Of a stretch of DNA of 64,000 bases, positions 56,940-60,466 are shown in pieces; the first letter of the stretch is position 1; each line of letters starts with the position of its first letter. The DNA lies in NCBI GenBank assembly GCA_002839375.1, contig PGXY01000001.1:248001-312000 (forward strand), given 5' to 3'. The translations under genes and the position numbers were made by a program. This DNA comes from Spirochaetae bacterium HGW-Spirochaetae-1 (GTDB taxonomy: Bacteria > Spirochaetota > UBA4802 > UBA5550). The notes under the pieces were generated by a model that saw only the letters and a list, made by a program, of their open reading frames with translations, was not told the DNA's origin and did no database searches.

Positions 56940-57039
56940 CGCTTCCCGATTGAGGGGTGTCCAGGTTTTGGGCCCGTTGCTTCTTCACAATTATTAAATA
57001 ATGCAAAAATCCAAAAAAATAGTTGACGATGGGACGGTT

Positions 57040-57092
57040 TTTCCCTTACTTACTAATATGTACTTCAAGTACATATTAGTAAGTAAGGGAAA
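57040..57092. promoter_or_regulatory. Perfect 53-bp palindrome before the glycyl radical gene
   Basis: Arms 57040-57065 and 57067-57092 are exact complements (26 bp each) around a single central C. All pairs were checked base by base. A TTGACG box (57023-57028) lies just upstream, so a -10 element would fall inside the left arm. The ribosome-binding site AAGGGAG (57109-57115) and the ATG (57122) follow. It could be an operator, a cruciform or a 26-bp RNA hairpin leader. Confidence 0.85.
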
Positions 57093-57121
57093 TTGCCATA
57101 TATTCTTTAAGGGAGTTAATT

Positions 57122-60100
57122 ATGGAAACAGATCATAGCACTCAGGTTCTCCAACCGGGGGAAAAGGACCTTTCATATAGCGCAAGGCAGGATGTATCGG
57201 CAGATAAACTGAAGGTCCTCAAAATACAGCGGACCTGTGTTCATGACGGGCCCGGTCTCCGCACAACGATTTTTTTCTACGGGTGCGGTCTGAGATGTCT
57301 ATGGTGCCAAAATCCCGAAGCGCTGGCCTATCCGCCCGATCTTCCCTTTGACGGTAATTACCCCATAGCCGATATTCTGGATACGGTATTGAGAGATAAA
57401 GAGTATTATTTTTCAACGGGGGGAGGCGTGACACTGAGCGGAGGTGATCCTTTATTGCAGAACCCCGACAGCCTGATCAGCTTATTGACCCTGCTGAAAA
57501 AAGAGAAAATTCATATAACCGCTGAAACGACACTCCACGCCTCCTGGAAAAATATTGTGAATATCGCACCTTATATTGATCAGTTTCTCGTCGATCTCAA
57601 GGTTGCAGGCGATGACGATCTGCATGTTAAACTCACCGGTCAGAACAGCATATTGATTCACGCCAATATCAGGCAGCTGATTGATAGTGGTGCCGCCGTG
57701 AAGTTCCGCATGGTGATGGTTCCGGGACTCAACGACAGTGAGGCCGGCATCAAAGCAGCCGCGGAATTTTTGCAGTCCCTGGGATATGAGTCGATTGAGT
57801 TGCTGAAATATCACAACATGTACGAAGATAAAGCCAGGCGCCTGGGCCTGGACCAGGTGTCATTAAATATCAGCCCTGAACAGAGCCTTGCCTCACTCAG
57901 GAATGCCGTGGTTTTGTTCAGAGACAATGGCATTAAGGCTGAAAATGCCGATCTGGATTCGTCGCGGCAGCAGACCGTTTTTACACAGCGTGTCCATGAC
58001 ATCCAGAAGGATATCAGGGAAAGCGGACGTGCTCTCTGCATGGAAGTATCAAAATTGAAAACCAGGTATTACCGTAAAAATGGTTTTAGCAAACCGACTC
58101 CCATTCACCGGGCGCAACGTCTTTCCTATGTGCTGAAAAACAAGACAGTCAAGGTTTACCCCGGCGAACTGCTGGTCGGTAATTTTACCTCGAAAAGAGT
58201 AGCGGGCCAGGTATGGGAGGAGCAGTATGGTATTCTCGATATCTCATTTCTCTACAAAATAAACCGGCAGAAACCCGTGTCCTTCCAGTGTTCATTCCGG
58301 GAGAGGTGGTATTTTTATACACGGATATTCCCCTTCTGGCTCAAGCACAGTCTCATAGCAAAGGTATATCCCAGATTATCTGATTTCATTGTGATGCTTG
58401 CGCGTTCTTCGGAAATGGTTGCCGGCTTTAACAATAATATGGCGGCGATCGCCCATTTTATCGTCAATTTTGAGCGTATCCTGACCCTGGGAACCACGGG
58501 CCTTATAGAAGAAATCAGGACTGCACAGAAAGAGAAACCCGGGAACAATCAGGATTTCTACAATGGCGCCATAATTGCCCTCCAGGCCCTGGAAAACTTT
58601 GCTCAGCGGTATGCCGACGATCTGACGCGCATGTCCCGGGAAGAAAGCGATCCGGTGCGCCGCAAGGAACTGCAGGAGATGGCTGATATCTGCCGTCATG
58701 TTCCCAAAAATCCCGCGCGTACCTATCATGAAGCGCTGCAGAGCATGATGTTTCTGCAGATCGCGCTGTGCATCGAGGCCTATGAAAATGCCGTGTCCTT
58801 CGGCCGTCTTGACCAGATCTTATATCCTTACTATAAAAAGGATATTGAAGCGGGAAGGATTACCTATGAAAAAGCAAAAGAGCTCCTGTGCCTGTTTGTT
58901 CTTAAAATGGATGAAGCGATTTTAGTCAACGACGGTGATTCATATCTCAATGTCAGCAAACTTTTTGAAACCCTGTCTACGGACCAGGCAGTGACCTTTG
59001 GCGGTGTTGACAAAGACGGCAATGACGCCACCAATGATGTAACGTACATGCTCATTGACGCCTGTGAGCTGCAGCCCCTGGCCATAAACATGACGGCACG
59101 AATTCACAGGGACAGCCCCGCTGCTTATCTGGACCGGCTTGCCGAAATTTATATAAACGGGTGTCCCATGCCGGAACTCTTCAGCGATGACATTTACATT
59201 GAATCAATCCAGAGGCATTACCCTACCACCCTGGAGCATGCCAGGAACTACGCCATTGTGGGATGTGTTGAGCCCAATGCCTCCGATGATCATTTCGGCA
59301 ATACGGACTGCGCCAACATGAATCTTGCCCTGCCGCTTTTACAGGCGCTGAAGGGACATGAACATGATCTCTGGAACTTCGGGGGTCTTGACCAGCTGGA
59401 AAAAATTATGAGTAAGTTTGTCGAATATAATTTCAGCGGTAAAAATATATTTTCGCAATCAGTCACTTCTATTCACAATAAAATTGTTAAACGAATACAT
59501 GCAAACAAGGGATTGTTTGTCTATAACCCGCCATCGGACATGGATGAACTGCTTGAACGCTTCCAGGTGCGATTGAATCATCTGGCATCGGCAATCCTGG
59601 CGGATCATCAGAAAATTGAAAAGGCGCTTCGTGAAAATTTTACCACGCCCCTTGCCTCCTCGCTCTACAGGGGCTGCATTGAAAGAGGAAAGGATGCATA
59701 TGAAGGCGGCACGACGTTCAACAGCAGCGGCATACAGGCCGTGGGCGTCACCGATGTGGCGGATTCCCTGCATGCCATTGACGAGGTCGTTTTCAGGAAA
59801 AGGCTGTATACGATCAATGATGTCATCAACGCCATCGATAACAATTTTGAGGGGGACCATGAGCGGCAAATAAGATCGGCATTGCTGGCGGTGCCGAAAT
59901 TCGGTGATGATTCATCCCGTGATGCGGCCCGATGGGTAACGAAGGTGATGGAAATCTTTAATATAGCACTGGCATCGGTGGAGAACTGTCCGCGCGGCGG
60001 TGTATATTCCGCCGGCTACTATGCCCTGAATGTGAGCGACCGTTACGGTAAAAAAACCCAGGCCCTGCCATCGGGCAGATTGCACGGTGTTTCTCTTGCC

Positions 60101-60466
60101 AACAGTGTTACGCCGCACTATGGCATGGAAGAGTCGGACCTGTTTTCATCGTTGAATTCCATTGCGGATGTCAACTTTACCGATTATGCCGCGAATGGCA
60201 CAACAGTTACCTTCACCATAGATTCCGCCCTGTTTCCGGGACATGAAGGGGTAAAAAACCTGGCAAGCATTTTCAAAACCTTCCTTACCACGGGCGGCAT
60301 GCAGTTTCAGCCCAATGTCATCAACCGCGAAATACTGCTCGATGCCTATAAAAATCCGGAAAAGCACAGGTATCTCATGGTTCGTGTTGCCGGATACTGT
60401 GCGTACTTTAATGAACTTTCCGATGAATTGAAACAGATCATTATTAACAGGACCTGCTATGCTTAA
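57122..60466 (+). CDS. Fused glycyl radical enzyme activase and glycyl radical enzyme
   Basis: 1114 residues in one open frame. Residues about 30-270 are a radical SAM activase: cluster cysteines 55, 59 and 62 (CGLRCLWC) and the SAM-binding GGGVTLSGGDP near 99-109. No 8-cysteine ferredoxin insert is present. From about 295 to the end is a full glycyl radical enzyme: SFGRLDQILYPYY, thiyl Cys715 and Glu717 in GCVEP, and the radical Gly1091 in RVAGYCAYF, 24 residues from the C-terminus. Cys plus Glu in this motif is typical of glycyl radical dehydratases and C-N/C-S lyases; classical pyruvate formate-lyase has a Cys-Cys pair. The substrate is unknown. AAGGGAG sits 6 nt before the ATG. The enzyme must work anaerobically. 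Confidence 0.93.
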   Translation: METDHSTQVLQPGEKDLSYSARQDVSADKLKVLKIQRTCVHDGPGLRTTIFFYGCGLRCLWCQNPEALAYPPDLPFDGNYPIADILDTVLRDKEYYFSTGGGVTLSGGDPLLQNPDSLISLLTLLKKEKIHITAETTLHASWKNIVNIAPYIDQFLVDLKVAGDDDLHVKLTGQNSILIHANIRQLIDSGAAVKFRMVMVPGLNDSEAGIKAAAEFLQSLGYESIELLKYHNMYEDKARRLGLDQVSLNISPEQSLASLRNAVVLFRDNGIKAENADLDSSRQQTVFTQRVHDIQKDIRESGRALCMEVSKLKTRYYRKNGFSKPTPIHRAQRLSYVLKNKTVKVYPGELLVGNFTSKRVAGQVWEEQYGILDISFLYKINRQKPVSFQCSFRERWYFYTRIFPFWLKHSLIAKVYPRLSDFIVMLARSSEMVAGFNNNMAAIAHFIVNFERILTLGTTGLIEEIRTAQKEKPGNNQDFYNGAIIALQALENFAQRYADDLTRMSREESDPVRRKELQEMADICRHVPKNPARTYHEALQSMMFLQIALCIEAYENAVSFGRLDQILYPYYKKDIEAGRITYEKAKELLCLFVLKMDEAILVNDGDSYLNVSKLFETLSTDQAVTFGGVDKDGNDATNDVTYMLIDACELQPLAINMTARIHRDSPAAYLDRLAEIYINGCPMPELFSDDIYIESIQRHYPTTLEHARNYAIVGCVEPNASDDHFGNTDCANMNLALPLLQALKGHEHDLWNFGGLDQLEKIMSKFVEYNFSGKNIFSQSVTSIHNKIVKRIHANKGLFVYNPPSDMDELLERFQVRLNHLASAILADHQKIEKALRENFTTPLASSLYRGCIERGKDAYEGGTTFNSSGIQAVGVTDVADSLHAIDEVVFRKRLYTINDVINAIDNNFEGDHERQIRSALLAVPKFGDDSSRDAARWVTKVMEIFNIALASVENCPRGGVYSAGYYALNVSDRYGKKTQALPSGRLHGVSLANSVTPHYGMEESDLFSSLNSIADVNFTDYAANGTTVTFTIDSALFPGHEGVKNLASIFKTFLTTGGMQFQPNVINREILLDAYKNPEKHRYLMVRVAGYCAYFNELSDELKQIIINRTCYA

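Follow-up and report, generated by a model that had tools for sequence, protein, structure and literature searches.

A perfect 53-bp palindrome with a conserved 25-bp core, a probable TetR-type operator, upstream of an activase-fused glycyl radical enzyme gene in a spirochaete

The palindrome and its surroundings

We analyzed a window of 64,000 nt from the genome of Spirochaetae bacterium HGW-Spirochaetae-1, in which an ORF starting at 57122 matches the radical SAM, PFL-like and glycine-radical families (Table 1). The family of activase-fused glycyl radical enzymes to which its product belongs (57122–60466 and L010–L074; ~54–72% identical) is found in spirochaetes, deltaproteobacteria, clostridia and Asgard archaea. 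These proteins carry a GCVEP motif, also present in dehydratase-type members. Among the open-access titles and abstracts searched, none evidently describes such a fused activase and glycyl radical enzyme.

Directly upstream of this gene, whose product is an oxygen-sensitive enzyme, lies a perfect palindrome, TTTCCCTTACTTACTAATATGTACTT-C-AAGTACATATTAGTAAGTAAGGGAAA. Both an inverted-repeat scan and the sequence itself confirmed the preliminary description on this point: the two arms, of 26 nt each (57040–57065 and 57067–57092), are complementary at 26/26 pairs (100%) around a single C. Its left end is 100 bp past the stop codon (56939) of a DUF1295 gene, and 29 bp separate its right end from the ATG at 57122. 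Its GC content is 28%, with an AT-rich centre. By chance, a perfect 26-bp arm is expected ∼2e-10 times in 64 kb, and single-strand DNA folding of the region gave z = –13.4.

The organism's own genome (G000) comprises 5.2 Mb in 14 contigs, and our palindrome statistics cover 0.86–1.66 Mb of it. In the 862 kb scanned for perfect palindromes, the 53-bp element is the second longest; the longest is GC-rich with 27-bp arms, and perfect arms of at least 16 bp recur. It had been proposed that regulator operators are rarely this long or perfect. That generalization fails in this genome: within 1.6 Mb, a perfect palindrome (arms 10–16 bp) flanks 6 of 16 TetR genes on their 5' side, versus 0.5 expected. 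The 53-bp palindrome is extreme in length, not unique in kind.

Table 1. Features of the locus in window coordinates, and contig positions of a palindromic repeat found elsewhere in the genome
Feature	Position	Strand	Basis
Possible –35 element, TTGACG	57023..57028	+	Spacing; below threshold in consensus promoter scan
Perfect palindrome, 26+1+26 bp around C57066	57040..57092	.	Sequence, inverted-repeat scan, folding
Left symmetric extension, TTTCCCTTACTTAC, absent from other sites	57040..57053	.	Site comparison, own-genome search
Possible –10 region (TTACTT 57046–57051 or TAATAT 57054–57059), in left arm	57046..57059	+	Inferred from spacing
Conserved putative operator core, 25 bp, TAATATGTACTTCAAGTACATATTA	57054..57078	.	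Whole-genome matches and orthologous promoters
Right symmetric extension, GTAAGTAAGGGAAA, complement of left extension	57079..57092	.	Inverted-repeat scan, site comparison
Possible ribosome-binding site, GGGAG	57111..57115	+	Sequence
Predicted target gene: 1114-aa fusion of radical SAM activase and glycyl radical enzyme	57122..60466	+	ORF and domain matches
Copies of TACGGACAGGTCGCGACCTGTCCGTA (L246–L254)	C1:454712, C1:465932, C2:191543, C2:192487, C3:256186, C3:541274, C6:254151, C7:370130, C9:304378

A conserved core and its candidate regulator

To see which part of the palindrome is shared, we compared the upstream regions of ∼60 enzyme orthologues. A long dyad was missing from most of them. 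A palindrome with the same centre was present upstream of the spirochaete orthologues L020, L033 and L024 (degenerate in L024) and of the deltaproteobacterial orthologue L037. Orthologue upstream regions and sites in the own genome together yielded the core, TAATRTRTACTNNNAGTAYAYATTA at 57054–57078, with the consensus TAATRTRTACTnnnAGTAYAYATTA. This core precedes the orthologous enzyme gene in four related genomes (G020, G021, G022 (=G134) and G093), the flanks having diverged; in G093 it carries two mismatches and stands directly before the enzyme gene. The 'perfect conservation' claimed earlier thus applies to the central 25 bp, which are kept in relatives, but not to the outer 14 bp on each side, which vary. 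Homologous loci lacking any dyad had been named as a result that would refute the initial reading. Most of the distant orthologues are such loci, whereas the close ones, from genomes that own the TetR gene described below, have the dyad.

Within the own genome, three places match the core with at most one mismatch (57054–57078 of the window, C1:60754 and C3:378933), compared with 0.001 expected by chance and none for a reversed-pattern control. The C1:60754 core lies between a TetR-family gene (C1:60878–61507, minus strand) and the next gene, ∼100 bp past the 3' end of the former; the product of the latter has no Pfam match. The C3:378933 core precedes two genes, one for a small protein and one for an aldehyde:ferredoxin oxidoreductase (AOR). 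A search for the half-site elsewhere in the genome, as suggested in the preliminary description, was fruitful for the core, with two further places. It was not for the half-arm TTACTTACTAATATGTAC, whose extra genome-wide matches at up to three mismatches stay at chance level because the outer arm is unique. Three weaker matches were not counted as regulon members: C3:14272, with two mismatches, sits between two gene ends, and C3:367538 (near an Fe-alcohol dehydrogenase gene) and C1:420985 have three mismatches each, where ∼0.4 matches are expected at three or fewer. A second perfect palindrome, TTGTACGGGCGGGTTTGAAACCCGCCCGTACAA (C3:378819–378851), lies ∼80 bp upstream of the AOR core site and may be a terminator or a repeat.

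The core takes the form TAATATGTACTnnnAGTCTATATTA in a sister family, where it stands before GMC oxidoreductase genes; in 4/4 cases TTGAC is found exactly 22 bp upstream of it. These sites (L152–L155, from G139, G079, G151 and G031) share one asymmetric position and precede a small gene together with the GMC oxidoreductase gene. They would represent the regulon of the C1:60878 TetR protein where the glycyl radical enzyme is absent. Outside the order, two-mismatch matches in 149 phylum genomes were AT-rich, and their frequency was close to that of control matches.

The candidate regulator is encoded by the TetR-family gene next to the C1:60754 core, on the same contig as the palindrome and ∼244 kb from it. 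Its product has a TetR_N domain (PF00440, E 1.8e-14), and its nearest solved relatives include FadR chains (3whb) and 1vi0. An orthologue, L097, matches the YsiA-like C-terminal family TetR_C_4 (E 6.7e-8); the C1:60878 protein itself has no Pfam match to a YsiA-like C-terminal domain. Orthologues 47–52% identical occur in G020, G021 and G022, all spirochaetes with the core before the enzyme gene. Two genomes from the same family, G011 and G012, encode the enzyme and lack both the core and a TetR orthologue (best identity 26%).

We then quantified this co-occurrence in an even sample of 149 phylum genomes. The TetR orthologue was found in 8/149 and cores with at most one mismatch in 6/149, and all six of the latter were among the eight TetR-positive genomes (hypergeometric p 2e-9 over the panel and 2e-4 within the order, values not corrected for phylogeny). 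In at least three families of the order, core and TetR gene agree in their presence and absence. A control TetR gene of the own genome, present in 24/24 genomes of the order, does not track the core. Two genomes depart from the pattern: G055 has the TetR orthologue and no core at two or fewer mismatches, and the deltaproteobacterium G023 has the core before the enzyme gene and no TetR match at E 1e-10. In other genomes, no core was seen within 1.5 kb of the TetR orthologues, so that adjacency is confined to the own genome.

Given that the core is found in front of unrelated genes and that its distribution follows that of one TetR gene, we favour a protein-binding site. Of the options raised initially (an RNA hairpin, a cruciform or a dimer-of-dimers operator), it is the protein operator that these data support, and the core is probably the operator of a TetR-type repressor encoded by C1:60878–61507. 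Switching by oxygen, also raised, finds no support, the regulator resembling YsiA/FadR-type TetR proteins. The oxygen/redox regulators FNR and Rex were considered too; the core does not resemble their motifs. Likeness to YsiA/FadR suggests, as a best guess, acyl-CoA or a related effector. FadR/YsiA of Bacillus is an acyl-CoA-responsive member of the TetR family, to which 3whb, 1vi0 and the L097 domain link the C1:60878 protein by weak similarity. Yet the predicted regulon here comprises a glycyl radical enzyme and aldehyde/alcohol redox genes, not β-oxidation, and the core differs from the FadR box. These findings provide the activase-fused enzyme with a predicted regulator, a putative operator sequence and a small predicted regulon. 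The regulon partners (AOR, and GMC oxidoreductases in the sister family) point to aldehyde/alcohol chemistry and thereby to testable substrates.

Promoter position and alternative readings

The preliminary description expected the palindrome to overlap the –10 region. Spacing makes this plausible: TTGACG (57023) with a 17-bp spacer would place the –10 element at 57046–57051, and the alternative GGGACG-17-TAATAT would place it at 57054–57059. The promoter matches are weak, though, and a consensus scan returned none above threshold. At 10/14 core sites, TTGAC or TTCAC occurs 22–34 bp upstream of the core. Either –10 element would put the transcription start at about 57058–57067, and no more than a short stretch of the left arm would then be transcribed.

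On this basis, TetR (YsiA/FadR-like) dimers would bind the symmetric core at 57054–57078. Since the core overlaps the likely –10/+1 region of the fusion-enzyme promoter, we expect repression by occlusion of RNA polymerase rather than a large RNA hairpin. An effector, probably an acyl-CoA, an aldehyde or an alcohol-derived metabolite, would release TetR. The same protein would control the AOR operon and the gene beside its own. Binding, repression, effector and exact transcription start are all inferred from sequence.

Several other readings were weighed. The core may be the operator of another regulator, whose presence happens to coincide with that of the C1:60878 TetR gene. The restriction of adjacency to the own genome and the opposite cases of G023 and G055 speak for this; elsewhere the link is one of co-occurrence, and another gene of the same distribution could account for it. 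Against it stand the agreement of presence and absence across families, the control TetR gene that does not follow the core, and the adjacency in the own genome, and we consider a different regulator improbable. Alternatively, the whole palindrome might be transcribed in the 5' leader and form a stem–loop that stabilizes or attenuates the mRNA or controls the ribosome. If transcribed at full length, the RNA would form a very stable fold (–41.5 kcal/mol, z –7.9), with the stem ending ∼18 nt before the possible ribosome-binding site. But RNA from 57066 onward has no unusual structure, and what is kept before unrelated genes, at a distance from the start codon that varies from 41 to 104 bp among sites, is the core sequence and not pairing alone. 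In L136 the core directly follows TTGAC, which places it in the promoter. The RNA hairpin is thus unlikely, with only a small chance of being correct, because transcription should start inside the palindrome, where the possible promoter elements put it.

Perfection of the arms could itself be the function, if a cruciform formed under supercoiling switched the promoter, with or without protein. A perfect 53-bp dyad with an AT-rich centre would suit such a role, as would outer arms that are symmetric without conservation of sequence. Yet the outer symmetry is missing at several sites of the same regulon and what is conserved is a specific sequence, as it would be in a protein site; this leaves the cruciform very unlikely. 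We give least credence to the palindrome being a terminator of the upstream DUF1295 gene, a mobile repeat or an assembly artefact. Its position shortly past the DUF1295 stop codon and the presence of other dispersed palindromic repeats in the genome are compatible with the first two. It lacks, however, the GC-rich stem and T-run of a terminator (28% GC, no T-run, no terminator match), and no further copies of the arms turned up in the genome-wide half-arm search or in 862 kb of the own genome. A fold-back assembly artefact, a concern voiced at the outset, is unlikely because the repeat is short and is flanked on either side by unique genes within a 470-kb contig, and because the core recurs in independent assemblies.

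Extended symmetry and other palindromes

The outer 14 bp on each side have no match at any other core site compared and occur at no second place in 862 kb of the own genome. At several other sites, symmetry continues 3–7 bp past the core, with differing sequences; at others there is hardly any. The 53 bp are best read as a conserved 25-bp operator with a unique, mirrored 14-bp extension per side, the perfect extensions apparently lying outside the shared recognition sequence. With several regulon sites lacking the outer symmetry, it is apparently not a general requirement.

The 25-bp core is compatible with a dimer-of-dimers site, though this is not proof. Among TetR-family operators, those bound by a dimer of dimers include QacR (28 bp), CgmR (32 bp), Ms6564 (31 bp) and CprB (22 bp), while the single-dimer sites of TetR, SimR and DesT span 15–17 bp (PMC4150764). 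The core falls within the 22–32-bp dyad range and its candidate regulator has a TetR_N domain. This range fits the core and not the 53 bp, and dimer-of-dimers sites are often not palindromic (PMC4150764), whereas the symmetry here is perfect throughout. No known operator was matched to the core sequence. Most likely, the 53-bp site belongs to the known type of TetR operator, its novelty being the unusually extended symmetry.

As the likeliest origin of the extensions, we favour template-switch 'perfection' of an existing palindrome. Template switching at quasipalindromes turns imperfect inverted repeats into perfect ones (PMC7202029, PMC8794818). The outer arms resemble its products in having symmetry without conserved sequence; in our case the process is deduced from the present-day pattern alone. 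The extensions may since have been kept for added contacts with a second dimer, or for a cruciform role. More tentatively, and with considerable doubt, we suggest that operators and other palindromes of this lineage are systematically driven by template-switch replication, or selected, to long perfect symmetry, leaving a conserved core in a unique mirrored shell, whose contribution may be cooperative binding or switching by a cruciform. Of this trend, the 53-bp site would be the best example. With its conserved core and unconserved but perfect arms, the site lends itself to the question of whether operators are shaped by template switching.

Other palindromes accompany TetR genes. Long perfect ones lie on the 5' side of further TetR genes of the own genome (L177:16136–16167, L238:18409–18443, L187:14078–14106 and L223:17022–17050) and are probable autoregulatory operators. 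Beside distant enzyme orthologues, TetR genes unrelated to the C1:60878 gene were found (L016, L018, L021, L030, L067 and L072). In L016 and L018, a different TetR gene is divergent from the enzyme gene, and the intergenic region holds its own, differing palindrome, TTTTAACGATCGTTAAAA (L016:2718–2761, 44 bp and perfect; L018:2893–2910); a second, degenerate copy lies close to the enzyme start. Given these unrelated neighbours and the different palindrome, TetR control of this enzyme via dyad operators seems to be recurrent, with different regulators.

Finally, a 26-bp palindrome, TACGGACAGGTCGCGACCTGTCCGTA, unrelated to the 53-bp site, has nine copies in the own genome, seven of them identical. 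It follows the same pattern, a fixed core within mirrored flanks (∼4–13 bp) that differ from copy to copy. The copies lie mostly ∼20 bp past stop codons, between convergent genes, and are REP-like or terminator-like. Two IS200-like (Y1) transposase genes of the own genome (L183:13517–14107 and L240:442–1032) resemble REP-associated transposases, and their products are candidates for spreading this repeat.
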